A stretch of DNA of 64,000 bases, from NCBI GenBank assembly GCA_024401695.1, contig JAKSKN010000003.1, positions 124,001 to 188,000 of the forward strand, read 5' to 3'. Below, in pieces: positions 17,102 to 28,651 of this stretch. The DNA comes from Bacteroidales bacterium. GTDB taxonomy: Bacteria > Bacteroidota > Bacteroidia > Bacteroidales > UBA932. Position 1 is the stretch's first letter. Every line of letters begins with the position of its first letter. Both the position numbers and the translations under genes were made by a program. The notes beneath the pieces were generated by a model. That model was not told the origin of the DNA and made no database searches. It saw only the letters and a list, made by a program, of their open reading frames with translations.

Positions 17102-17106
17102 ATAAA

Positions 17107-17214
17107 GACCTGCTGAAAAAACGCTGACAGAATGAGGATTCCTTCGCCAGGTAGGGTCAAAAAAGGGGTACCTGGAAAAGAAAAGCCTGCTGAAAGGGGA
17201 ATTTTCAGCAGGTC
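17107..17214. repeat. Inverted repeats in the murB/barrel-protein intergenic region
   Basis: GACCTGCTGAAAA occurs at 17107-17119 and in inverted orientation at 17202-17214; CCTGCTGAAA occurs again at 17186-17195. CCAGGTA (17147-17153) also pairs with TACCTGG (17169-17175). The region can fold in more than one way. It may be a decayed repeat element or a set of terminators; no transposase is near. Confidence 0.6.
17186..17212 (-). terminator. Probable terminator of the small barrel protein gene
   Basis: A perfect 10-bp stem (CCTGCTGAAA with TTTCAGCAGG) and a 7-nt loop. In the minus direction it is followed by a pyrimidine-rich tract (CTTTTCTTTT). It lies 55 bases after the stop codon at 17268. 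Confidence 0.65.
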
Positions 17215-17267
17215 TTTCTATTATAGCGATATGTGCAGGCCCTGAAGGCCTGGAACTGTTTCTAAGA

Positions 17268-17825
17268 CTAGAACAGATAGAGGAATCCGATATTGACAGA
17301 GAATGCGCCAATCTTGAAGTTGGTGTCGGAAGTCTTCGCGGTGAGGCTGAAGAGGTATGACACGCTCGGCTCAAAAGCGAAATGCTCGCTGACGAAGAAA
17401 TCGTAACCGGCCTTTACAACAAGGTTGAGGGCATTGATGGAGTCTTTTGACATAAATGATGAATCTCCGACTTTTCCGCTCATCAACATAAGGTCTGCAC
17501 CAGCGAAAAGGTTAGGGATGACATAGTAGCGTGCACCTGCATAGACGTCGAACAGTGAAAGCGGAGTGTCGTCGCCCTTCATTGTCTGGAAACCGATACC
17601 GGCTTCGATGGCGAGGTTGTCGATGACAGCGAAACCGCCGGCGGCCTGAAGTCCGAAGCGTGTGGCCTTGACGCTGCTTGAACTGCCTTCCGGAGTTATG
17701 CTTCCGGTGTTGAAGCCGAGATTGGTGAGAGTAGGATCAAGAAATGCCTGGCCTTTCTTGATGGTCTGAGCGGAAGCCGAAAAAACTAAAAGACATCCGA
17801 CAAGAACAGCAAATACTTTTTTCAT
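17268..17825 (-). CDS. Outer-membrane beta-barrel protein
   Basis: 185 aa with a clear signal peptide (KKVFAVLVGCLLVFSASAQ). The mature part has alternating aromatic and hydrophobic strands, typical of small OmpA/OmpW-like 8-strand barrels in Bacteroidota (GLQAAGGFAVIDNLAIEAGIGF, YAGARYYVIPNLFAGADLML, KAGYDFFVSEHFAFEPSVSYLF), and it ends in the aromatic residue of GFLYLF, as expected for BAM recognition. Start ATG 17825 is set by the signal peptide. It is divergent from the exporter operon across 50 bp that hold a perfect palindrome. Confidence 0.83.
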   Translation of the reverse strand: MKKVFAVLVGCLLVFSASAQTIKKGQAFLDPTLTNLGFNTGSITPEGSSSSVKATRFGLQAAGGFAVIDNLAIEAGIGFQTMKGDDTPLSLFDVYAGARYYVIPNLFAGADLMLMSGKVGDSSFMSKDSINALNLVVKAGYDFFVSEHFAFEPSVSYLFSLTAKTSDTNFKIGAFSVNIGFLYLF

Positions 17826-17837
17826 AGGTTTGTTAAA

Positions 17838-17857
17838 TTTTCGTAAATTTACGAAAA
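17838..17857. promoter_or_regulatory. 20-bp perfect palindrome between divergent envelope genes
   Basis: TTTTCGTAAATTTACGAAAA, a perfect inverted repeat centred 22 bases from the barrel-protein ATG and 28 bases from the tolC-like ATG. Its core TAAATTTA is one base off the -7 consensus on both strands, so it may be overlapping divergent promoters, an operator for a dimeric repressor, or both. Confidence 0.6.
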
Positions 17858-17875
17858 ATTCAATCAAAAACAACA

Positions 17876-19147
17876 ATGTTGACATTCAAAGGGTTAATGC
17901 CTCTGGTTGCGGTTGTGGTTGCGTTCGGTTTCTGTAAGGAGGCCGGAGCGCAGACCCTTTCGCTGGATGACTGCCGCAGGGCGGCCAGGGAAAAAGCCCG
18001 ATCAGCGGAACTGGAGGATGTCATCGATAAAGAGCACCAGCAAAAGGAAAACATCATAAAAGTCAAATACAGGCCGGAGCTTTCTTTCTATGGCGAAACC
18101 CATTATCAGTCCGATGCCCCGGATCCTACAGGAATCACGGATTTCCCGTTCGAGCTGTACAAGCTTGATAAATTCCAGTATCACGCAGGCTTTATGCTGA
18201 CCCAGTCCGTATACCGGGGAGGAACGCTGAAGCTCAGCAAGGAAATCAACGACATAGACAAAGATATCGAAAGCCTTGAAAATGAGTCCTATTTTCTTGA
18301 GCTGGAGAACACCATAGATGAGATATATCTTGACATAATACTGGCTTCCAAGGAGGAGGGCATAGCTCAGACGCATCGGGATATTCTTGAAATCAAGCTT
18401 GAAGATGCAAGGAAGGCTTTCGATCAGGGCGTCGGATACCGCAGCGATATCCTTACCCTTGAAGCCGGACTCGCCGAAGCCGATGCCGGTCTCGTGGCGT
18501 ATGCTGCCAGAAGGAATGCCGGACTGGCGGTACTGTCCGAACTTACCGGTCTTGAAATCACATCCCGGACGGAATTGGAACTCCCATATGCAGGTCTTCT
18601 TCAGGATTTTACCGATCCGACATTCGGTATATTAGACCTGCAGGGCCGCAGGATTGAAGCGCAGAAGCGTTTGGAATTGGCGAAAACCCGGCCGAGCGTC
18701 AATGCCTTCGGAACGGTTGGTTATGGTCTGTGGTCGCTCGATTTCTTCAACCGTAACCCTCAGTTCTATGGTGTGGTGGGGTTGACACTGAGCATTCCGA
18801 TAACCTCCAGGCAGAGTGCAATTTACCGCAACAGGCTGCTCAGCTATCAGTCCGACAGGCTTCAGATACAGAAAGAAGCCCTGACCAGACGCCAGTCTGT
18901 GGAGAAAATAAAGCTTGACGGCGAACTGGCAAGAATCGAAGCCCTGCTGGAATCCAGCGGAACTGCTGTCAGCAAATACGAAGCCTTGTGCGAAGAATTG
19001 GACAAAATGACAAAATCCGGTGTCTCGTCCCAATCGGAATATCTTGAAGCCTTGAAAAAGCTGTCTGCGGCCAGAGTCAGTTATGAGGCATACTCGATCC
19101 TGAAGATCAAGACCCGGCTGATGAAAAACAGATCAATGGTAAAGTGA
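17876..19147 (+). CDS. TolC-family outer-membrane efflux protein
   Basis: 423 aa with an N-terminal signal (ending GAQTLSLDDCRRAA) and two long heptad-rich helical stretches (about 150-245 and 330-423) typical of the periplasmic coiled-coil barrel of TolC proteins; SLDDCRRAAREKA and RPSVNAFGTVGYG are the usual OEP landmarks. It is the outer-membrane channel of the tripartite exporter encoded by the next genes. First gene of an eight-gene operon; the next ATG follows its stop by one base. Confidence 0.9.
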   Translation: MLTFKGLMPLVAVVVAFGFCKEAGAQTLSLDDCRRAAREKARSAELEDVIDKEHQQKENIIKVKYRPELSFYGETHYQSDAPDPTGITDFPFELYKLDKFQYHAGFMLTQSVYRGGTLKLSKEINDIDKDIESLENESYFLELENTIDEIYLDIILASKEEGIAQTHRDILEIKLEDARKAFDQGVGYRSDILTLEAGLAEADAGLVAYAARRNAGLAVLSELTGLEITSRTELELPYAGLLQDFTDPTFGILDLQGRRIEAQKRLELAKTRPSVNAFGTVGYGLWSLDFFNRNPQFYGVVGLTLSIPITSRQSAIYRNRLLSYQSDRLQIQKEALTRRQSVEKIKLDGELARIEALLESSGTAVSKYEALCEELDKMTKSGVSSQSEYLEALKKLSAARVSYEAYSILKIKTRLMKNRSMVK

Positions 19148-19148
19148 T

Positions 19149-20045
19149 ATGAAAAGAAGTGTTTATTTCTACATAGGCGCTGCAATGGCGGTGATTTCCT
19201 GCTCCGGAAACGTCAAGCCTTCGGCATACGGAATCATCGATGCCGAAAAGTGGATGGTCGCTTCTTCCGAGCAGGGCCAGATTGTAAGCCTGAACGTCAC
19301 AGAAGGGAAGAAACTCCTCAAGGACGAGAAAGTCGGACTGATTGACACCGCTCAGCTTTCCATTCAGCTGAAGGCGGTTGAGGCTCAGGTCGTTTCGTTG
19401 AGGCAGACGTTGCCGGATATCGGGAAACAGATGGACGTCCTTCATCAGAAGAAGGAATCAGTCCGGAATGAGATTGCAAGGATCCGCCCGCTGGCGGAAT
19501 CGGGCAGCGTTTCTACAAAACAGCTTGAACGGCTTGAAGAAGAATTGCGTCTCTGCGAAAGTCAGGAATCGGCATCCCGTTCATCGCTCAGCCGTGAGTC
19601 TGCATCCGTCCTTGCGTCAATCATCGCATTGGAAGCGCAGGCCGACGTCTTGAAGGACAAGATCAGCAGAAGTGTGATAGTCAACCCGGAAAATGGAACC
19701 GTGAGTGAACTTTATGTGAAGGAGCACGAATTTGTCAGTTCCGGGATGCCTGTCTATAAATTGTCCGACTACGAGAATATGTTCGTGGACTGCTGGTTTG
19801 ATGCGCAGTCACTGGCCTCCGTGACACTCGGCAGCATAGTTGATGTCGTCCCGGATTCGGCAGACAGGCACAGGATCGACGGTATCGTGACTTATATTGC
19901 AGAGGAATCGGAATTCACGCCGAACAAGGTGATGACACGCGACACCAGAGAAAGATACGTCTATCGTGTCAGGGTATCAATCCACAACGATGGCACCTTG
20001 AAGGCAGGTATGCCTGCGGAAATCTTTCTCCGCGAGTCGAAATGA
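19149..20045 (+). CDS. HlyD/YbhG-type periplasmic adaptor, lipoprotein
   Basis: 298 aa. Lipobox AVISC, then a beta-hairpin half of a lipoyl-like domain (QIVSLNVTEGKKLLKDEKVG), a long alpha-helical hairpin (about 80-175), and the second lipoyl half with beta-barrel (VNPENGTVSELYVKEHEFVSSG, VFVDCWFDAQSLASV, AGMPAEIFL). It should link the inner-membrane ABC transporter to the TolC-type channel. Gene order matches E. coli ybhGFSR, where YbhG is the adaptor. It overlaps the following ATPase gene by 4 bases. Confidence 0.9.
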   Translation: MKRSVYFYIGAAMAVISCSGNVKPSAYGIIDAEKWMVASSEQGQIVSLNVTEGKKLLKDEKVGLIDTAQLSIQLKAVEAQVVSLRQTLPDIGKQMDVLHQKKESVRNEIARIRPLAESGSVSTKQLERLEEELRLCESQESASRSSLSRESASVLASIIALEAQADVLKDKISRSVIVNPENGTVSELYVKEHEFVSSGMPVYKLSDYENMFVDCWFDAQSLASVTLGSIVDVVPDSADRHRIDGIVTYIAEESEFTPNKVMTRDTRERYVYRVRVSIHNDGTLKAGMPAEIFLRESK

Positions 20046-20908
20046 TCAGCGCTGAAAACATATCGAGGATTTTTGGCGCTCACCACGCCCTGGACGATGT
20101 GTCCTTTTCCATTGAGGACGGCCAGCTGGTGGCGCTTATGGGTGCCAACGGTGCTGGAAAATCAACGTTGTTCGACATCCTGGCCACCTTGGACAGAAAA
20201 TTCGAAGGGTTCGCCGGGATAGACGGGATAGATGTCCGGAAGAATCCTGTCGACATCCGGAAGCATATCGGTTATGTCCCCGGGAGATTTTCTTTGTACA
20301 ACGATCTCACCGTCGCCGAAAATCTTGACTTTTTCGCCTCGGCCTATGGTGTGGCCACGGGATGCGTGTCCGAAGTATGTCCCGGTCTTTGGAGGGGCCT
20401 GGAGCCGTTCAGCGCAAGCCGGGCGGGTACGCTGTCCGGGGGAATGAAGCAGAAGCTGTCCATCTGTTGTGCTATGGTGCATACTCCGTCAACGCTTCTG
20501 CTTGATGAACCGACGGTGGGGGTGGATCCGGTGTCACGTCGTGAAATGTGGGAAGAGCTCGATGCCTTGAAAAGACAGGGAACGACAATCCTCATAAGCA
20601 CGCACTACCTTGATGAAGCTTCCCTGGCTGACAAGATTCTGTTCCTTCACGAGGGCCGGCTGCTTGTTTTCGATACCCCGGCCAGAATCATCGCATCTTT
20701 CCCGCACAGGGTATACAGCATACCTTGCGCCCAGGCAGACCGTAATGCGCTGCTGGCCGCACTTGAATCAGGCCCATCACTGATAGGGCATTATGTTTAT
20801 GGAGAGGCGGTCCATGCTGTGAGTGACGGACCTGTCACACTTGACGGATACGAAGTCACAGAAACAGAGCCAAGCCTGGAAGACGTTTTCATCAATCTTT
20901 TATCCTGA
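20042..20908 (+). CDS. ABC transporter ATPase (YbhF N-half-like)
   Basis: 288 aa. Walker A GANGAGKST (about 35-43), Q-loop region YVPGRFSLYNDLTV, canonical signature LSGGMKQKLS, Walker B LLLDEPTVGVD, and H-loop STHYLDEA are all intact. The C-terminal ~70 residues form the extra domain common in ABC-2 drug or lipid exporters. With the next gene it corresponds to the two halves of YbhF-type double ATPases, encoded separately here. Powers export through the two permeases downstream. Confidence 0.93.
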   Translation: MISAENISRIFGAHHALDDVSFSIEDGQLVALMGANGAGKSTLFDILATLDRKFEGFAGIDGIDVRKNPVDIRKHIGYVPGRFSLYNDLTVAENLDFFASAYGVATGCVSEVCPGLWRGLEPFSASRAGTLSGGMKQKLSICCAMVHTPSTLLLDEPTVGVDPVSRREMWEELDALKRQGTTILISTHYLDEASLADKILFLHEGRLLVFDTPARIIASFPHRVYSIPCAQADRNALLAALESGPSLIGHYVYGEAVHAVSDGPVTLDGYEVTETEPSLEDVFINLLS

Positions 20909-20911
20909 TCC

Positions 20912-21574
20912 GTGAAACTGGTAAGCATAGACAACGTCAGCAAATGCTTCGGCAGCTTCAAGGCTGTCGACGGAGTCTCGTTGAGTCTGGAGTCCGGAGA
21001 GATTCTCGGCCTGCTCGGGGCAAATGGTGCCGGGAAGACAACGCTGATCAGGATGCTGTGCGGCCTGACAAAAGCCAGCGGGGGTGCTGTCAGCATAAAT
21101 GGATCCTTCGGATATATGTGCCAGTCATTTTCTTTGATTGAAGAATTGACGGTCCACGAAAATATCAGGTATTATGGGAACCTCTACGGGCTGGATAAGC
21201 AGAAGCTGTCTGAAAGGGAGGATGAAATGGTTGCCGCCCTGCATCTGGAACCATATCTCAACAAGTCATTGCGTTTCCTGCCGTCAGGCTGGAGACAGGC
21301 CCTCTCTTTTTCGATAGCTGTGATCCACGACCCCGACGTGCTGGTCCTTGATGAACCGACATCCGGGCTGGATTCCCTTTCAAGGAGGAGGCTGTGGGGA
21401 ATGATACACGGATGTTCGTCCCGCGGCACCGGGATCGTTGTCAGCACCCACTATCTGGATGAGGCATTTTATTGCGACCGCCTTGCAATAATGAGTCACG
21501 GCCGTCTGATATGCCAGGGGCATACAGCTGAAGTCGCGTCCTGCCCGGGTGAACTTATCAAATACTTCAAGTAA
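20912..21574 (+). CDS. ABC transporter ATPase (YbhF C-half-like)
   Basis: 220 aa from a GTG start, 3 bases after the previous stop. Walker A GANGAGKTT, Walker B VLVLDEPTSGLD and H-loop STHYLDEA are present, but the signature reads LPSGWRQAL where LSGGQ is usual. A similar LPxGW form is found in the second half of fused YbhF-like ATPases, which supports the pairing and suggests asymmetric ATP sites. It lacks the C-terminal accessory domain of its partner. Co-transcribed with the permeases. Confidence 0.9.
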   Translation: MKLVSIDNVSKCFGSFKAVDGVSLSLESGEILGLLGANGAGKTTLIRMLCGLTKASGGAVSINGSFGYMCQSFSLIEELTVHENIRYYGNLYGLDKQKLSEREDEMVAALHLEPYLNKSLRFLPSGWRQALSFSIAVIHDPDVLVLDEPTSGLDSLSRRRLWGMIHGCSSRGTGIVVSTHYLDEAFYCDRLAIMSHGRLICQGHTAEVASCPGELIKYFK

Positions 21575-21575
21575 T

Positions 21576-22658
21576 ATGTCAGGACGCACAGGGGCCATAA
21601 AAGCAATCTTCGTAAAGGAGTTCAGACATATCTTCAGGGATATTGTCAGCTGCCTGCTGCTCTTCATTATGCCTGCCGTGATCCTGGTAATGTTCGGATA
21701 CGCGCTTTCCTTCGAGGTCCATCACCACGAAGTGGCAGTCCTGTGTGTCGGTCCGGACGCTGCTGCGGAACGGCTGTTCGAGCGTATTGACGCCAATCCG
21801 AAACTGAAGGTGACACAGCGGCTGGACAGATATGACCAGATTGGCGAAGCAATGACAAAAGGCAATACCAGAGCTGTCATAATCTACTCTGGAGACGGTG
21901 TTGAACTGTATCTTGACGGATCTTCTCCGGCGTTCTCCATCGGAGTCCGAAGCACGATAGAGGCCGTCATATCTGACTTTATCCTGGACGAGAACCGTGT
22001 GCCGGAATCCGTGAGGCCGGAAATCAACGTGCGTTATCTCTATAACCCTGCCTCCAACAGAGAATATATGTCCGTGCCGGGCCTTGTTCTGATGATCTTC
22101 ATCCTTGTGAGTTCGATTGCTCTCGGCACCAGTATGAACAAGGAAAAGATCAACGGGACCTTCAAGCTGCTTCGGCTGACGCCTGTCACGAATATCCAGC
22201 TCGTTATCGGGAAAGCCCTTCCGTACTTTCTGATATCCCTTGTACATATTGCTGCTATCTACTTCATATGCGGTTACTTCCATATCCAGATCGTTGGGAG
22301 CGTCGCATTGTTCCTGCTGATATGCATTCTGTTTACGCTTTGCTGCCAGTCCCTGGGCCTGTTGATAGCCGCGTGGTTCGACAGGCCGCTGGATGTCGTG
22401 ATCCTCAGCTGGATAGTGCTGTTCATACCGAATGTGTTCCTGTCCGGGTTCGTGTTCCCGACGACCACGATGGAAGGCGTTATCCGCCTGATGGCGGAAT
22501 GCCTGCCCGGAACATCGTTCATTGATGCTTTCAGAAGCGTTGCGTATATGGGTTGCGGTTTCGGTGAAATTCTCAAGCCCGTCATCATCCTGCTTGGAGA
22601 AACCGCTGCTGCAGTCCTGTTGTCACTGCCCGGAATGAAAAGAGAACTGATGAGATGA
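21576..22658 (+). CDS. ABC-2 type permease (YbhS-like)
   Basis: 360 aa. One N-terminal membrane helix (about 25-45: IVSCLLLFIMPAVILVMFG), a large extracytoplasmic domain (about 50-170), then five helices between about 170 and 355, the standard ABC-2 layout; NKEKINGTFKLLRLTPVTNIQLVIGK is the characteristic loop. Start ATG 21576 lies one base after the upstream stop; an earlier ATG (21549) would overlap the ATPase by 26 bases and add non-homologous residues. It overlaps the next permease by 4 bases and probably heterodimerises with it. Confidence 0.9.
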   Translation: MSGRTGAIKAIFVKEFRHIFRDIVSCLLLFIMPAVILVMFGYALSFEVHHHEVAVLCVGPDAAAERLFERIDANPKLKVTQRLDRYDQIGEAMTKGNTRAVIIYSGDGVELYLDGSSPAFSIGVRSTIEAVISDFILDENRVPESVRPEINVRYLYNPASNREYMSVPGLVLMIFILVSSIALGTSMNKEKINGTFKLLRLTPVTNIQLVIGKALPYFLISLVHIAAIYFICGYFHIQIVGSVALFLLICILFTLCCQSLGLLIAAWFDRPLDVVILSWIVLFIPNVFLSGFVFPTTTMEGVIRLMAECLPGTSFIDAFRSVAYMGCGFGEILKPVIILLGETAAAVLLSLPGMKRELMR

Positions 22659-23701
22659 AAACTGTCTTGCTGAACAACCTTGTCAAGGAAGCCCTCCAGC
22701 TGGTCAGGACGCCGGCAATGGTGGCCATTCTGATACTATGTCCTGTTGTGACAGTGGGACTGGTCCCGTTCGGCCTTGGCGACAAGACCATGCTTCGGGT
22801 GGAAGTAGTGGACAGGACGTTTACGGACAGGGGGCTTGAGGCGGTTTCCTTACTTGCGCGTTCTCCATATGTCAAGTCAGTCGGGGCCTCAAATTCCGAG
22901 TCAGAAGCGGAGCAGAAGCTCAAGCACGGCGAAACCGATGCTGTCGTGACCCTGTCCGATGGTGGTGAAGCGACGATTACGGTCAACGGTGCACACACAT
23001 TGCATGCAGCCAATGCCGAATATTACATAGAAAACATCATATCCCCTCCAGAGGAGAAGGTCCTCTCCGAAATCCATCCGCACCCTCTGTATCTGAGCTG
23101 CGACGACAACACTCATTACTATCTGGTCTCAATGATCATAATGCTGACGGCCATAGTGGGATGCTGCCTGTCTGCACTTTCTGTCGTGAGGGAGATGGAG
23201 ACGAAAGTCCTTGAGCATCTGCGCAGTACAGGTATGAAGGCATTGGCTTACGTGACTTCAAAGGTTGCCTTCTATGTTTGCATCACTCTTCTGGAACTCA
23301 TTGTTGCGCTGATCATTGCGAGGGTTGTGTTCGGCCTGGACCCGGCAGGACCTTTGATTGCGCTGTTCATTCTGTTTGCCTGCTTCCTTTTTGCTATGGT
23401 AAATCTGGGTGTGACCTTCGCCGCTGGCGGGAAGAATATGGCAAGAGCAATCTACCTTCTGGTATTCGTGTTCTTGATACTGATCCTTCTGAGCACGATG
23501 TTCGCCCCTCTGGACAATATGTCGCCGGCCTGGGCGGCCACCAGGTTCGTGAATCCTTTTTTCTGGGGCATCGACGGAGCTATGAAGATTATGTTGAAAG
23601 GGGTGGGTATATCCGGAGTTTTTCCTCATATTTGCATACTTCTCGCCATCGGGGGATTGTTGTTCACCTTCAATGTTGTGGCGCTGGGGAAAGTCGAGTG
23701 A
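22655..23701 (+). CDS. ABC-2 type permease (YbhR-like)
   Basis: 348 aa with the same layout as its neighbour: helix 1 (about 18-38), an extracytoplasmic domain, then five helices, and the loop VVREMETKVLEHLRSTGMKALAYV. It is the probable second half of the export channel. The substrate is not evident; YbhFSR-like systems have been linked to drugs and cations, and the adjacent fatty-acid-type operon raises the possibility of a lipid. One base separates its stop from the nitroreductase start. Confidence 0.9.
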   Translation: MKTVLLNNLVKEALQLVRTPAMVAILILCPVVTVGLVPFGLGDKTMLRVEVVDRTFTDRGLEAVSLLARSPYVKSVGASNSESEAEQKLKHGETDAVVTLSDGGEATITVNGAHTLHAANAEYYIENIISPPEEKVLSEIHPHPLYLSCDDNTHYYLVSMIIMLTAIVGCCLSALSVVREMETKVLEHLRSTGMKALAYVTSKVAFYVCITLLELIVALIIARVVFGLDPAGPLIALFILFACFLFAMVNLGVTFAAGGKNMARAIYLLVFVFLILILLSTMFAPLDNMSPAWAATRFVNPFFWGIDGAMKIMLKGVGISGVFPHICILLAIGGLLFTFNVVALGKVE

Positions 23702-23702
23702 T

Positions 23703-24293
23703 ATGGATAACAGATACGAACAATTGCTGGACATTCTGTCCACAAGGCACAGTTGCCGCAGGTTCTCGGGAGAGCCGGTCAGCGAAGAGGACATCCGGAA
23801 AATCCTGGATGCCGCCGGGCGCTCGCCTTTCGCTTCCGGAAGGAAGAACTGGAAGATTGCCGTGATCCGGGACAAGGAACAGCTCAAGGCCATTGCGGAC
23901 TGCGTCCGCGAGCAATCGGTGGAAATATCCAAAGGGATGGACCGGGAGGCTGCGTCAATGTTCCTGAGATATTCGTCAAGCTTTACATTCTTTGAGAATG
24001 CCGCCGCACTGTTTGTCCCATATTGCAGGGAGACCGCCACGATGAACAGCCTTCTCGGGGGGCAGGCATCTGAGGAAATCAATGCCTGGGAGCACGACAA
24101 TATCACGAAGTCACTCTCCTGCGTGGCTATGCTCATCATCCTTGCCGCCGAGAGCCTGAATCTTGGGGCGTGCTATATGACCGGCCCGCTTATGGCCGGG
24201 CGACAGCTCAATGCCTCGCTCGGAATCAAGGAAAACTTTGTAATCGGGGCACTGATACCGGTAGGACACAAGCTTGAGGCCTATGCAGATTGA
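23703..24293 (+). CDS. Nitroreductase-family FMN oxidoreductase
   Basis: 196 aa. LLDILSTRHSCRRFSGEPVSEEDIRKIL with the conserved R-x-RF-like start, AGRSPFASGRKNWKIAVI, and near the C-terminus AAESLNLGACYMTGPLM, all typical of FMN-dependent nitroreductases. ATG 23703 is used because it follows the upstream stop by one base and homology starts there. Real substrates of such enzymes are usually unknown; being at the end of an exporter operon it may modify or detoxify the cargo. It overlaps the next gene by 11 bases. Confidence 0.9.
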   Translation: MDNRYEQLLDILSTRHSCRRFSGEPVSEEDIRKILDAAGRSPFASGRKNWKIAVIRDKEQLKAIADCVREQSVEISKGMDREAASMFLRYSSSFTFFENAAALFVPYCRETATMNSLLGGQASEEINAWEHDNITKSLSCVAMLIILAAESLNLGACYMTGPLMAGRQLNASLGIKENFVIGALIPVGHKLEAYAD

Positions 24294-24924
24294 AACATTT
24301 GTTTCCGGCAAAATGCTGGAGAATGGCTATGTGCTCTGGAACGATGCCGGAGAGGCTGTCCTGATAGATCCGGGATTCACTACGGAGCAGGAATTCAACG
24401 GCCTGGCCGCCTTTATCGATGGGCGTGGACTGAAACCTCTGGCCATACTGGTGACGCATCCTCACTTCGATCATATCGCTGGCGTCGATGCCGTCAGCAA
24501 CAGATATGGGATTGAATGCTGGATCAACGGAGAGGATGAGGCCATTCTTGAAAAGAACGATTTCTTTTCCAATATGTACGGAAGCCACCTTGAGACGAAG
24601 GTCAATTTCAAAAAGTTCTCACCTGATGTCAAGGTCCTGGATTTCGGGAAAATCTCCCTGCAGGTCCTTCCCATTTCAGGGCATACGGCGGGGTCAGTGG
24701 CTTTCTATTCTCCTGAGGCAAAGGCGCTGTTCGCCGGCGATACGCTCACAAAAGGAAGCCTCGGCTTTCTCGAGACAGGCTATGGTGTCGTGCTCGAATG
24801 TATCAAGGAAATGATCTTGTGCCTGCCTGATGATACTGTAATCCATTATGGCCACGGGGCCGCTTCAAGCATAGGTGAAGAGAAGAAAAACAACAGGTTT
24901 TTCAAAAGGAGCGCTGCTCTTTGA
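24283..24924 (+). CDS. Metallo-beta-lactamase-fold hydrolase (glyoxalase II-like)
   Basis: 213 aa. The zinc-site motif THPHFDHIAG (HxHxDH) lies near residue 64; further ligands are ISGHTAGSV, FAGDTL and the last His in HYGHGAAS. Size and motifs match the single-domain glyoxalase II-like hydrolases (YcbL type) that cleave thioesters such as S-lactoylglutathione. Start ATG 24283 lies inside the end of the nitroreductase gene. The last 23 bases overlap the 3' end of the convergent lipoprotein gene. Confidence 0.9.
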   Translation: MQIETFVSGKMLENGYVLWNDAGEAVLIDPGFTTEQEFNGLAAFIDGRGLKPLAILVTHPHFDHIAGVDAVSNRYGIECWINGEDEAILEKNDFFSNMYGSHLETKVNFKKFSPDVKVLDFGKISLQVLPISGHTAGSVAFYSPEAKALFAGDTLTKGSLGFLETGYGVVLECIKEMILCLPDDTVIHYGHGAASSIGEEKKNNRFFKRSAAL

Positions 24925-25297
24925 ACTCAATTTCTGTCATCATCCCGTTGACGGAATCCGTAACGACCTTCATCTTCCCACCCTTCAGATATGTCACAGT
25001 AGCGACGAACACAACGGAGACATCGTCATTGTGGGCGTTCAGCGTAATCGTAAGACCATCCGCAGAGAAGTCCAGTCCGTCCCCTGAGAATTTCATCCCC
25101 GTGCCGCCATCGTAGAATTCGTAATCCCAGTTCTTTTCCACCCGTACATAAGAATCCTTGTATTCAGGACCCAGATCGGGATTCGAGCAGGAATACAGCC
25201 AGGTTCCCACGTAGGAAGGGACCTCCTCCTTTTTACAGGAAACGGCCAGCAGCAGGATGGCGGTCAGGCAGAATGATATGGATGCGATACGCCTCAT
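24902..25297 (-). CDS. Small lipoprotein, lipocalin-like
   Basis: 131 aa. Signal peptide with lipobox LLLAVSC, then a short beta-rich domain beginning YVGTWLYSCSNPD, the G-x-W start common in lipocalin-like Bacteroidota lipoproteins (VRVEKNWDYEFYDGGTGMKF, LTITLNAHNDDVSVVFVATVTY). It overlaps the ketoreductase gene by 4 bases, so it is the last gene of the fatty-acid-type operon and may carry or bind the product in the envelope (inference). Its 3' end overlaps the convergent hydrolase gene. Confidence 0.75.
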   Translation of the reverse strand: MRRIASISFCLTAILLLAVSCKKEEVPSYVGTWLYSCSNPDLGPEYKDSYVRVEKNWDYEFYDGGTGMKFSGDGLDFSADGLTITLNAHNDDVSVVFVATVTYLKGGKMKVVTDSVNGMMTEIEFKEQRSF

Positions 25298-26001
25298 ATC
25301 CCAAGCCAGAATCCGCCGTTGACTGCCAATACGGCGCCGTTTATGTAATTGCTGTTGTCGGAGCAGAGGAATTCGACGGCCGCCGCTACATCGTCAGGCG
25401 TGCCGAAGCGGTCGCTGGCGTTGACGCCTTTCAGGTCGGTTCCCGCCGTGGAGATGACAAGTTTTTCCATTGTGCCGCTGAGAATGCTCCCCGGTGCGAC
25501 GCAATTGCATCTGACACCTTTCTTAGAACATTCGGCCGCAATGCCCTTGCTGAGTGTCTCAATATACGCCTTTGTGCCACCATATACGCTCTGACCGCGG
25601 TAAACCTTCTGGGCGGTGACAGAGGAGATGTTGACGATCACACCTTTTCTTTTCAAGCACATCCGTGGCAGGACAGCCCTGCAGAGCAGGGTTGTGGCGA
25701 GGATGTTGACAGATATCATTTTTTCTATCGACTCTGTCTCGAGTGTAGGAAGAAGTCCTGTTTCGGTGACGGCGGCGGCGTTGACAAGGATTTCAACGTC
25801 ATCCAGGGAAGCAGCAAAATCCTCCACGGCTTTCAGGTCAGAGAAATCGACCTTGACCAAAGTGGCGTCAGGCACGGCATCCGAAAGCTGCTCCACGTTT
25901 TTCCTGTACTGGAGAATCATAGGTTTTCCAAGAGATGCAAGCCTTTTTGCGATGGCCAGTCCTATGCCGGAACTTGCTCCGGTGATCACTATCTTTCCCA
26001 T
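25294..26001 (-). CDS. 3-oxoacyl-ACP reductase, FabG-like SDR
   Basis: 235 aa short-chain dehydrogenase. NADP-binding TGASSGIGLAIAKRL (about 6-20), NAAAVTETGLL, catalytic Ser in NISSVTAQKVY, Tyr-x3-Lys in VYGGTKAYIETLS, and CVAPGSILSGTM. It reduces 3-oxoacyl-ACP to the 3-hydroxy form. In this operon it pairs with a ketosynthase, a dehydratase and an ACP, so it is more likely a dedicated pathway enzyme than the general FabG. Overlaps the ketosynthase gene by 13 bases. Confidence 0.9.
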   Translation of the reverse strand: MGKIVITGASSGIGLAIAKRLASLGKPMILQYRKNVEQLSDAVPDATLVKVDFSDLKAVEDFAASLDDVEILVNAAAVTETGLLPTLETESIEKMISVNILATTLLCRAVLPRMCLKRKGVIVNISSVTAQKVYRGQSVYGGTKAYIETLSKGIAAECSKKGVRCNCVAPGSILSGTMEKLVISTAGTDLKGVNASDRFGTPDDVAAAVEFLCSDNSNYINGAVLAVNGGFWLGI

Positions 26002-27176
26002 TTCTTGAATATCAATGCGGTGTTATGGCCACCGAAAGCCGAATTGAGTTTGAGAATGTATCTGATTGGCATTTTCAAAGGCTCGCCCGTGACAACGTGG
26101 AACGGAGCTTTTGGATTAGGAGTGGTAAAGTTGACCGTAGGCAGGACTTCCTGATGTTCCAGGGAGTGGATTATGCCCATCAGTTCAACGGATGTGCAGG
26201 ACCCGATCATATGCCCGACCTGGCCTTTCATGGAGTAGACCGGGATATCTGCCAGCCTGTCTCCGAAGATGCTGTACAGGCAGTTGTATTCTGCAGGCGC
26301 GCATTTTGGTGTACCTGTGCCGTGTAGATGGATACAGTCAATCTGGTCCGCGCTGATGCCTGCATCTTCCAGAGCTGCTGCCACTGCCCTGGCGGCCTGC
26401 TCCCCGGTCGGTTCCGGCTCTGTGACGGCGAAGGCGTCCATAGAGCAGCCGTATCCGCAGAGTTCGGCAAGAACAGGCACGTCGGCCGGCACCCGCGAGG
26501 AGTCTTCAAGCATAACGGCAACGGATGCTTCGCCAAGAACCGTTCCGCTTGCCTTGAGATCCATAGGCTTGCATTTGTACGGTGAAGGGTCGTCAGACAT
26601 TGACAGTGCGCCAAGTTTGAAGAAGCCGAGGAAGTTCACAGGCGAGATCATTGAATCTGCGCCACCGGTAACGACAGCCCCTGCGGTATGCTTGCGGAGC
26701 ATCCTCAATGAAAGACCTATCGCCTGCGCCGAGGCCGTACACGCAGAGGAGAACAGATGGCAACCGGCCCCGATATTCCATTTCCTGCAGAGTTCCTGCA
26801 TATCGGCGTTCATCCTGAAATGTGCTGAAGAGATGTCCTTGGTGCGGGCATAGTTGTCGATGTCGAAATAATCGACTCCGCCGCCGACATTCAGGACAAG
26901 TTCGTCAGCCTTGTATCTTTTCGAGAAGGCCGTCTTTGCATCAAGCTCACCCAGCGCCTGCTCGAAGAAATATACTTTTCTGTCGATTCCGCTGCCGGTA
27001 TGGACCACCCTGCCGCAACTGCGTATCTCGCCGGCGGCCTTCATCTCATATCCGTCTGTCTTGAAGTTCTGGATGTCATCGATGCAGAGCGTTCCCTGAC
27101 GAAGCGTGTCCATACACTCTTCGTAGCTGCACCCCAGCGGTGTCCTGGCTCCTATTCCCGTGATTACTGCCGCCAT
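25989..27176 (-). CDS. Beta-ketoacyl-ACP synthase (KAS II-like)
   Basis: 395 aa thiolase-fold condensing enzyme. The catalytic set is intact: Cys146 in SSACTASAQAIG, His285 in HLHGTGTP, Lys317 and His322 in KGQVGHMIGS; NSAFGGHNTALIF closes the protein. It shows the shape of KAS II and of the ApeO-type ketosynthases of aryl-polyene clusters, which work with a Cys-less partner; such a partner is encoded just upstream. Likely elongates acyl chains on the 127-aa ACP. Overlaps its neighbours on both sides, so expression is tightly coupled. Confidence 0.9.
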   Translation of the reverse strand: MAAVITGIGARTPLGCSYEECMDTLRQGTLCIDDIQNFKTDGYEMKAAGEIRSCGRVVHTGSGIDRKVYFFEQALGELDAKTAFSKRYKADELVLNVGGGVDYFDIDNYARTKDISSAHFRMNADMQELCRKWNIGAGCHLFSSACTASAQAIGLSLRMLRKHTAGAVVTGGADSMISPVNFLGFFKLGALSMSDDPSPYKCKPMDLKASGTVLGEASVAVMLEDSSRVPADVPVLAELCGYGCSMDAFAVTEPEPTGEQAARAVAAALEDAGISADQIDCIHLHGTGTPKCAPAEYNCLYSIFGDRLADIPVYSMKGQVGHMIGSCTSVELMGIIHSLEHQEVLPTVNFTTPNPKAPFHVVTGEPLKMPIRYILKLNSAFGGHNTALIFKKWER

Positions 27177-27727
27177 TCCCCAAGTTCGAATATTTCAGTT
27201 GCGCCTTTGCCGGAGCCAAGGAACGGGTGTCCGTTCCATTCCGACGGAGTCCCGAGGGCGAATCCGCATTCCACGGAACCGTCCGCATGGAGACGGCCGG
27301 CGCCGATGAGGACATTTCCTTCGGTGGGTGCGGTCAGGGCACAATACAACAATGCCGATGCAGAGTCAATGATGACGTTGTTGTCACCTTTCAAGTCATT
27401 TTCAATGGCGATGAAGCAGGGGACCATATTCCGCATCATCTTGAAGATATCCAGGGTGGATACGGCCGGGAACAGGCTGCAGATGTCCCGGATGTCAGAA
27501 TCAATGCCGCCCACAATGCCGCGTATGCTGTCGAAATTTTCTGTTTCGGCAGAAGCATAGTAAAATGGTGTATCCGAAGAGACACCCTTCCCTTCGAGGA
27601 ATTCCGCTGCCGTGAGCACGGCGGCCTGTGCCTCACGGTTGTAGTATTTCACAAGCTTGCGCTTCCGAAGGACGGCTGTGACCGGAATCGGCTCATCCGG
27701 ACCATATTTGCGAAAAATGAATTCCAT
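27164..27727 (-). CDS. Truncated ketosynthase homologue, chain-length-factor-like
   Basis: 187 aa, about half a ketosynthase; it matches the N-terminal half only, like the 'ketoacyl-synt_2' proteins in aryl-polyene loci. The active-site region reads IIDSASALLYCA (121-124 DSAS) where the catalytic Cys would be, so it cannot condense by itself. FALGTPSEWNGHPFL and GKGATEIFELGEW end the protein. A structural or chain-length role beside the adjacent intact ketosynthase is inferred. It overlaps the dehydratase by one base and the ketosynthase by 13. Confidence 0.75.
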   Translation of the reverse strand: MEFIFRKYGPDEPIPVTAVLRKRKLVKYYNREAQAAVLTAAEFLEGKGVSSDTPFYYASAETENFDSIRGIVGGIDSDIRDICSLFPAVSTLDIFKMMRNMVPCFIAIENDLKGDNNVIIDSASALLYCALTAPTEGNVLIGAGRLHADGSVECGFALGTPSEWNGHPFLGSGKGATEIFELGEWRQ

Positions 27728-28200
27728 TATTCCTTCTCGATGACAGCGCTGGAGGACGCAAACCTGATGAGTTCGTCGCTGACTTCCTTCATCTTGTCAT
27801 TGAGAATATCCAGAAAGGTGAAGATAAGCTCGCCTTCCGCACAGGTTTTGCCGTCTTTCATTGCCTTGACCCTGACTGCTCCATACTCGTCGGGATAGAA
27901 GCATTTGACATCGGCTCTGTAGACAAGTCTGTCACCCGGCGTCACCGTGCCGCGGAACTTGAAACGTTCAACCATAGTCAGCACCGCTCTGCGGTCCGGG
28001 CATCCCATTTCCTTGCGGCACCATTCGAAGAACACCCCTGACAGCTGGGCCATTCCCTCAATCATCATTGTACCGGGGAAAATCGGGTAGCCGGGGAAAT
28101 GCTCGTTGAAGATGTCGTCGGACAGGGAAACGCATTTCAGCGCCTCCACGTATTTGCCGAAGCATATCCTTGTGACTTTGTCTACGAGGTAGAATCTCAT
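27727..28200 (-). CDS. 3-hydroxyacyl-ACP dehydratase, FabZ-like hot-dog fold
   Basis: 157 aa. The hot-dog motif EHFPGYPIFPGTMMIEGMAQ gives the catalytic His34 and Glu48, as in FabZ. It would dehydrate 3-hydroxyacyl-ACP to the 2-enoyl form. No enoyl reductase is encoded in the operon, so double bonds made here may be kept (polyene-like product) or reduced by the general FAS enzyme. The C-terminal ~25 residues extend beyond typical FabZ. Overlaps the ACP gene by 4 bases. Confidence 0.88.
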   Translation of the reverse strand: MRFYLVDKVTRICFGKYVEALKCVSLSDDIFNEHFPGYPIFPGTMMIEGMAQLSGVFFEWCRKEMGCPDRRAVLTMVERFKFRGTVTPGDRLVYRADVKCFYPDEYGAVRVKAMKDGKTCAEGELIFTFLDILNDKMKEVSDELIRFASSSAVIEKE

Positions 28201-28580
28201 TTCTGTTCGTTGAGCTTGGTGTAGATTACGGTTGCAAGGTTATGGACGGTGAAGAGCTGGAATATGTCGTTGACGCTCTGGCCTTCCTTGTATTGAGAGC
28301 TGTCGAGGTTGCTGTTGAGTTTGGCTGCAAGTTCCGCGGTGATCTTGGCATCAGCAGGGAAACCGTCGGCGGAATAGTCGTTCATCGTGATCTCGGCAAT
28401 CTTCAATTTTACGCCGAAGACATTCTCGATCATATAGAGGATTTCGATGAAATCTATGCTCTCGGCGCCAAGGTCCCTGACCATTGCGCTGTCCGGCTTG
28501 ATATCATCGGTGGAATCCAGCCCGAAAATGGGCACAAGTTCTTCAATAAGTCTTTCCTCAATGTTCTGTTTATCGTTCAT
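28197..28580 (-). CDS. Acyl carrier protein, long form
   Basis: 127 aa, about 50 residues longer than housekeeping AcpP. The phosphopantetheine site is Ser41 in RDLGAESIDFIEIL (usual DSL). Helix II/III features are followed by an insertion (about 67-105: NDYSADGFPADAKITAELAA, KLNSNLDSSQYKEG) before a last helix (LFTVHNLATVIYTKLNE). It is the first gene of the minus-strand operon and presumably holds the growing chain. A separate normal acpP lies at 46781-47029, so this one is specialised. Confidence 0.88.
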   Translation of the reverse strand: MNDKQNIEERLIEELVPIFGLDSTDDIKPDSAMVRDLGAESIDFIEILYMIENVFGVKLKIAEITMNDYSADGFPADAKITAELAAKLNSNLDSSQYKEGQSVNDIFQLFTVHNLATVIYTKLNEQK

Positions 28581-28602: not shown

Positions 28603-28610
28603 CGAAGGTA
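28603..28610 (-). promoter_or_regulatory. Weak -7 box of the fatty-acid-type operon
   Basis: CGAAGGTA on the plus strand is TACCTTCG on the minus strand, one base off TAnnTTTG, 22 nt before the ACP start. It is the best candidate in the 86-bp gap shared with murA. Confidence 0.4.
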
Positions 28611-28651
28611 AATATTAAGTGGCAAAAAACAAAAAACAGACATTTTTTTAC

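Follow-up and report, generated by a model that had tools for sequence, protein, structure and literature searches.

A 64,000-nucleotide stretch of a Bacteroidales genome (positions 124,001 to 188,000 of contig JAKSKN010000003.1, assembly GCA_024401695.1; hereafter the window) carries a conserved unit of 15 genes at 17268-28580 (11.3 kb), in which a full-length ketosynthase (KS) and a half-size KS homologue without the nucleophile cysteine (hKS) are encoded together with a ketoreductase (KR), a dehydratase (DH), an acyl carrier protein (ACP), a nitroreductase-family flavoprotein (NTR), a metallo-beta-lactamase-fold (MBL) hydrolase and an exporter. It is probable, at roughly 0.6, that this unit is a self-contained and apparently mobile biosynthesis-and-export island resembling a highly reducing type II polyketide synthase (PKS), on which a conjugated polyenoyl-ACP would be made, tailored, released and exported. 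More tentatively, hKS may represent a third, independently truncated class of KS partner beside the PF13723-type chain-length factors (CLFs) and the AmcG-type cyclisation factors (CYFs), the product an undescribed class of secreted polyene-like metabolites in anaerobes, and the NTR reaction a redox step on acyl-ACP that its family is not known to perform.

Gene content and conservation of the island

The preliminary description of this DNA had recognised a compact six-gene operon, perhaps for a reduced pathway, and the synthase genes at 24902-28580 (reverse strand) indeed comprise, in the order first given, a 127-aa ACP, a FabZ-like DH, the 187-aa hKS, the KS, a FabG-type KR and a small lipoprotein, with successive overlaps of 4, 1, 13, 13 and 4 bases that agree with the reported 1-13 bases. 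The conserved unit is wider than this operon, however, as partner genes run on leftwards to 17268 and add the NTR, the MBL hydrolase, an ABC-2/HlyD/TolC-type exporter (ABC, ATP-binding cassette) and a small beta-barrel; exporter, NTR and MBL recur with the operon, and neither 'compact six-gene' nor 'reduced' describes the pathway. The statement that an MMPL exporter is absent was correct, none being named, but overlooked the ABC-2/HlyD/TolC-type exporter, whose genes adjoin the operon on the opposite strand. AMP-ligase, ammonia-lyase, glycosyltransferase, acyltransferase and enoyl reductase genes are, as first stated, likewise not named among the 15 island genes (by Pfam, and by NCBIfam for part of them), nor is a starter gene or a malonyl transferase. 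The host genome is 2.65 Mb in size and 97% complete, and a contig-edge artefact was rejected, as the window is interior to a 228,836-base contig.

Genes in the loci of relatives were mapped with hidden Markov models, and all gene and motif counts refer to 15 rows, namely the window and 14 other loci. L017, L019, L023, L010 and L055 were excluded because they duplicate the contigs of L007, L008, L011, L020 and L016, respectively, and L022 because it is probably almost a copy of L009; the partial KS copy in L059 and the one in L048, which equals that in L056, were left out of the trees. The shared cassette consists of genes for a small outer-membrane beta-barrel (OMPb), a TolC-type outer-membrane efflux protein (OEP), a HlyD-family adaptor (MFP), two ABC ATPases, two ABC-2 permeases (PERM), NTR, MBL, in some rows the lipoprotein (LIPO), KR, KS, hKS, DH and ACP (counts in Table 1). 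A link between exporter and synthase is indicated most strongly by L015, where the synthase half and NTR lack a local exporter: the same genome retains the split-off exporter on another contig, with the genes standing together as OEP-MFP-ABC-ABC-PERM-PERM-LIPO at 38-58% identity to the window. The lipoprotein, which falls in no Pfam or NCBIfam family, is encoded beside the split-off exporter in L081.

Besides that of the own genome, hKS homologues were identified in four genomes of the family sample and one of the order sample (149 genomes searched in each, own included), and three of 61 congeners, own included, carry hKS. A pattern-based scan covering 84,980 species, each represented by a single genome, yielded 14 hKS loci, all in metagenome-assembled genomes; 13 of them are labelled Bacteroidia, Bacteroidales or Bacteroidetes and one (L024) Candidatus Aminicenantes, a label that may be a binning error. 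By title, the sources include sheep rumen (L015) and yak omasum (L025). Weak hKS-profile matches in the class and phylum samples (3/395 and 3/395 genomes besides the own one) were rejected, L029 having no KS gene by eye and L027, L028, L030, L031 and L032 containing ordinary full-length KSs.

Two loci deserve separate mention. At L024:2409-12572 the order DH-hKS-KS-KR-NTR-ACP is followed by a second short-chain dehydrogenase/reductase (SDR) gene and then by four radical S-adenosylmethionine (SAM) genes, and this locus may encode a version of the synthase whose product is tailored in another way. Between L013 and L025 the synonymous distance (dS) is 0.035 for PERM1 as against 0.37 for hKS, 0.51 for KS and 0.57 for ACP, and exporter and synthase halves may therefore recombine separately.

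The half-size ketosynthase homologue and its neighbouring enzymes

Neither Pfam nor NCBIfam yields a match for the window hKS, and not one of the 15 members has a KS-like Pfam match at E<=10, PF13723 included. Three tests agree that hKS is, on profile comparison, a real homologue of the KS N-terminal domain. A profile of the 15 hKS scored 36.2 (E 2.3e-4) in hhalign against a diverse profile of KSs and CLFs, compared with a mean of 14.3 (sd 2.1, maximum 18.9) for 60 column-shuffle controls, and 33.8 against KSs without CLFs (shuffle maximum 24.1). FabF models were matched individually by seven members (best E 0.0019), the window hKS not among them; two unrelated NCBIfam families also match among the 15, at E 0.036 and 0.086. 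All 11 PDB sequences matched by the hKS profile up to E 10 are KSs, the matches being weak (E 0.02-1.5).

The hhalign alignment spans the N-terminal helix to the nucleophile loop, the second KS half being missing. By motif spacing the nucleophile position holds Ser in 14 members and Ala in L024; the hhalign path gaps this position, which leaves the exact residue uncertain, but by neither route is it Cys. The claim of a KS with a half-size partner minus the nucleophile is thus borne out, although the partner had been called 'Cys-less', a term that holds for the nucleophile and not for the whole protein, as the window hKS (P0003) contains four cysteines. With a length of 185-196 aa, hKS is uninterrupted in all 15 rows, and it is under purifying selection: the three pairs with enough changes give dN/dS values of 0.10, 0.08 and 0.19, the corresponding KS values being 0.10, 0.08 and 0.16, while the window/L012 pair, with three nonsynonymous changes and one synonymous change, offers too few to judge selection. 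The possibility that the half-KS is a degraded pseudogene in relatives, raised at the outset, was rejected on these grounds.

The full KS has the catalytic residues Cys146, His285, Lys317 and His322. Its Cys is invariant in the alignment of all 15 rows; a Cys motif pattern matched 13 of them, and both misses (L008 and L009) retain the residue in the alignment. The HGT and K..GH motifs of KS and the YxxxK motif of KR are present in 15/15 rows, the ACP serine lies in GAES or GADS in 14/14, and the DH motif HFPGxPxxPGxxxxE was recognised by eye in the window. The gene set shows these features of a highly reducing type II PKS: a KS with Cys-His-His, a Cys-less KS homologue beside it in every row, KR, DH and ACP with catalytic residues (DH by eye), and no named enoyl reductase. 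The island ACPs, at 122-130 aa, are about 50 residues longer than a usual ACP and carry a C-terminal extension.

Insertion site and apparent mobility

In the window the island (17268-28580) separates murB from murA, whereas the two genes are adjacent, 0-66 bases apart and without the island, in all six congener loci read (L049-L054, drawn from 22 congeners with a murA match). The murA-side junction is identical in the near-identical L012, whose flank is also common to the window. Another genome of the genus, G096, has the island on one contig (C4) and an intact murB-murA pair on another (C3). Flanking genes (E<=1e-15) are common to only three pairs among 13 loci (L008-L009, L013-L025 and L014-L016), and relatives carry the island, whole or partial, in up to nine other flanking contexts, nine being an upper figure since some flanks are short or one-sided. 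The island is therefore apparently mobile. Plasmid-borne and phage-borne elements were both rejected: 72,556 plasmid records contained no hKS at E 0.01 and hKS was confirmed in no viral contig, and the missing tRNA in the window and the flank-like GC content, both given below, also count. At the murB-side junction there is a perfect 16-base inverted repeat, 17104-17119 (+) and 17202-17217 (-), with 82 bases between the arms (chance expectation 0.04 matches), which may act as a terminator or may be what is left of a small element.

Proposed pathway and alternative explanations

In the proposed pathway, KS would pair with hKS, the latter being a half-size, catalytically dead and CLF-like partner, and the pair would condense malonyl units, drawn from the host malonyl-ACP machinery, on the island ACP, with reduction by KR and dehydration by DH in each round. 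As no enoyl reductase is named, the chain should, by type II PKS logic, stay conjugated and give a polyenoyl-ACP. NTR would then perform one redox change on the ACP-bound chain, whether a reduction or an oxidation, the glyoxalase-II-like MBL hydrolase would free the acid, and the HlyD/ABC-2/TolC exporter with the small barrel (and, in some lineages, the lipoprotein) would carry it across both membranes. Heterodimer formation by KS and hKS, the polyene, the reactions of NTR and MBL and the exported substrate are what we infer. MBL has solved matches to 7ev5, 2zwr and 2xf4 and an HxHxDH motif in 12 of 13 rows, the exception being a 51-codon fragment in L021; from its sequence it would be the natural release enzyme, that is, a putative thioesterase.

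It is rather unlikely that NTR is instead the missing enoyl reductase, in which case the exported product would be a specialised fatty acid that is saturated wholly or in part. NTR is encoded directly upstream of ACP on the same strand in L008, L009, L010/L020, L011 and L018 and between KR and ACP in L024 (in the window, L007, L012-L016 and L025 it is encoded convergently); this position beside the synthase genes points to a core enzyme, and the island has no other gene named as an enoyl reductase. Its closest solved relatives, however, are a BluB-like protein (3eo8, the best match, E 3.8e-14), iodotyrosine deiodinase and general nitroreductases, and we know of no acyl-ACP enoyl reductase in the nitroreductase family. 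The RxSxR motif of NTR is present in 14/14 rows.

It is also improbable that KS and hKS act as a cyclising pair in the manner of the cispentacin proteins AmcF-AmcG (KS-CYF), the product then being a small acid with a ring and not a linear polyene. The available text of PMC10698177 treats AmcG as a motif-less partner whose role is hard to predict and proposes it as a cyclisation factor; hKS is likewise motif-less, and P0004, P0002 and P0001 score 158.8, 36.4 and 21.8 bits on the AmcF, AmcE and AmcB models. These scores are under the respective cut-offs (325, 140 and 80), KS scores higher on FabF (232.6), and the best match of the genome to the AmcH model, on other contigs, reaches 92.7 bits against a cut-off of 370. 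Neither AMP-ligase nor aminotransferase is named among the island genes, and the island has its own KR, which is not listed for the named amcG cluster types in that part of PMC10698177. NCBIfam, in which the presence of an AmcG model is not established, gave for the 15 hKS only the weak FabF and two unrelated weak families mentioned above. Elsewhere in the own genome (G000:C70, ~86517-93869) lies a 3465-aa open frame with repeated sub-cut-off matches to the AMP-ligase model, probably a nonribosomal peptide synthetase.

There is only a slight chance that the island is a reduced aryl-polyene or flexirubin locus whose starter genes lie elsewhere in the genome. The logic of KS, partner, KR, DH and ACP is the same, ApeC is likewise half-size in the portion of PMC8358021 at hand, and frames of 228-275 aa occur among the PF13723 matches in the order. 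However, PF13723 has no match in the 15 hKS and zero matches in the own genome, although PF13723 partners are present in 75 of 295 order genomes. In a KS tree of 40 rows the island KSs form one group (100/100) apart from FabF-type KSs, eight flexirubin KSs and flexirubin partners, and in a tree of 42 rows with 18 PF13723-associated KSs (beside ten order partners) the 15 island KSs are again grouped (support 1.0), ApeO being absent from both trees. Further, the ABC exporter replaces the MMPL or resistance-nodulation-division (RND) transporter and LolA set, an arrangement that mapped relatives retain, and no aryl starter gene (AMP-ligase, ammonia-lyase) is named by Pfam in the 15 island genes, the rest of the genome not having been searched. 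As PF13723 is absent from the genome and the island KSs are grouped apart, the locus is not of the typical flexirubin or PF13723 kind, and the idea of a stripped-down aryl-polyene pathway was not sustained. In genome G221 (L006/L011) an hKS island occurs together with two PF13723 partner matches, and both systems can thus coexist.

Housekeeping fatty-acid synthesis is hardly credible, for despite the resemblance to FabF, FabG, FabZ and ACP a FabF-like KS is encoded separately in the genome (on C1, 30% identity) and, as given above, few congeners have hKS.

Several observations weigh against a self-contained, mobile polyene island as proposed. The 14 other genes follow KS in their pairwise distances (r 0.86-0.97), which favours the proposal, but this partly reflects shared descent, there being no housekeeping-gene baseline. 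No MBL was found on the two stretches read for L015 and no OEP or OMPb in those read for L008 and L009; the 13-kb contig of L024 has no exporter or MBL, and its genome has only 28%-identical permeases. Island GC is 0.520 compared with a mean of 0.519 (sd 0.015) in 61 outside windows, the window contains no tRNA, none of the island genes is an integrase, and a recent foreign origin is disfavoured for these reasons. NTR, were it an enoyl reductase, could render the product saturated. Finally, the hKS profile scored 16.7 and 18.3 against two sets of PF13723 partners, within the shuffles, and not significantly against flexirubin CLFs or the island KS profile alone; action of hKS in the manner of ApeC is therefore suggested by analogy.

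Features of the island

The coordinates are given in Table 1. Upstream of ACP there is a possible promoter of the ACP operon, which resembles the Bacteroidetes promoter consensus, TAnnTTTG.

Table 1. Island features in the window, with the number of rows (n=15) carrying each gene; these numbers are limited by L020, L021 and other rows that stop at contig or locus edges
Feature	Position	Strand	Rows	Evidence
OMPb, small outer-membrane beta-barrel, island left end	17268..17825	-	9	PF13505 E 1.2e-8
OEP, TolC-type outer-membrane efflux protein	17876..19147	+	10	PF02321 E 6.2e-18
MFP, HlyD-family periplasmic adaptor	19149..20045	+	12	PF13437/PF16576
ABC1, ABC ATPase	20042..20908	+	12	PF00005 E 2.6e-27
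ABC2, second ABC ATPase	20912..21574	+	12	PF00005 E 5.7e-23
PERM1, ABC-2 permease, RbbA-like	21549..22658	+	11	PF12698 E 4.3e-39; best NCBIfam RbbA, sub-cut-off
PERM2, second ABC-2 permease	22655..23701	+	11	PF12698 E 5.9e-39
NTR, nitroreductase-family flavoprotein, BluB/iodotyrosine-deiodinase-like	23703..24293	+	14	PF00881 E 9.6e-25
MBL, metallo-beta-lactamase-fold hydrolase, glyoxalase-II-like, putative thioesterase	24283..24924	+	13	PF00753 E 5.6e-25
LIPO, small lipoprotein, 131 aa	24902..25297	-	7	lipobox LLLAVSC by eye; no family
KR, FabG-type ketoreductase, 235 aa	25294..26001	-	15	SDR/FabG; TIGR01830 E 9.1e-50, under its cut-off
KS, full ketosynthase, 395 aa	25989..27176	-	15	PF00109/PF02801 (ketoacyl-synt N+C)
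hKS, half-size ketosynthase homologue without nucleophile Cys, 187 aa, putative KS partner	27164..27727	-	15	profile comparison
DH, FabZ-like hot-dog dehydratase, 157 aa	27727..28200	-	15	PF07977 E 1.8e-21
ACP with C-terminal extension, 127 aa	28197..28580	-	14	PF00550 (PP-binding) E 5.3e-8
Possible Bacteroidetes-type promoter of ACP operon	28603..28632	-		TTG-19-TACCTTCG; one mismatch to consensus; match alone no proof of function

Significance

Pigments and antibiotics are products of type II PKS-like systems in which the KS partner is dead. Here a compact cassette with its own exporter occupies differing chromosomal places in Bacteroidales, rumen and omasum genomes included, and it offers both a minimal natural test of the size limit of a KS partner and a new place to seek secreted metabolites of anaerobes. 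As Pfam and NCBIfam miss the partner, genome-mining tools might show only 'fatty-acid genes' at such loci or mislabel them as aryl polyene. An antiSMASH survey reports, in its accessible portion, 2,800 'aryl polyenes' in rumen genomes (PMC8241843), and surveys of this kind may contain the island unrecognised. No described cluster of this kind was found in a literature search, which missed most subscription journals.

Comparison with known systems

The exporter shares its HlyD adaptor, ATPase units, two ABC-2 permeases and TolC-type partner with the ABC-2 tripartite exporters of the YbhFSR/RbbA type, but differs in having two separate ATPase genes and a dedicated OEP and barrel, and its RbbA score lies under the equivalog cut-off.

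The ladderane-type clusters of type II fatty-acid synthesis (FASII) in Kuenenia and Desulfotalea, so far as the consulted sections of PMC2649909 describe them, are similar as specialised FASII systems of anaerobes with Cys-less FabF paralogues; no radical SAM or phytoene-desaturase-like gene is named among the 15 island genes, however. L024, with its four radical SAM genes, recalls the radical-SAM-rich FASII clusters discussed there for ladderanes, a likeness by description only. The cispentacin system AmcF-AmcG, in the corresponding sections of PMC10698177, likewise combines a KS and a motif-less partner with an ACP, a hot-dog enzyme, hydrolytic release and reliance on host fatty-acid synthase, whereas the island is without the AMP-ligase and aminotransferase, has its own KR and exporter, and has family scores below the cut-offs.

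Flexirubin and other PF13723 loci of Bacteroidota share the phylum and the enzyme logic. Their partner frames are 275-359 aa in nine of the ten best order loci and fused to 636 aa in the other, shorter frames of 228-253 aa standing lower in the order match list, and the associated KSs group apart from those of the island. A precedent for the KS pair is ApeO-ApeC of the aryl polyene pathway, in which a full-length KS is accompanied by a catalytically dead partner of half its size (PMC8358021, PMC8253772); ApeC is a solved case in which mostly the first thiolase domain is kept (PMC8358021). As far as the pathway is laid out in the consulted text of these two sources, it also has a KR, a FabZ-like DH, an ACP, a thioesterase and a lipoprotein, with no enoyl reductase named. 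The island partner, however, is not of the PF13723 type, and its KS stands apart from the PF13723-associated KSs sampled, ApeO not among them. Compared with the pathway as given there, the island is without an AMP-ligase, a second ACP or DH, ApeR, acyl- and glycosyltransferases, an RND transporter and a LolA-like protein, and has instead a nitroreductase, an MBL hydrolase and an ABC exporter.

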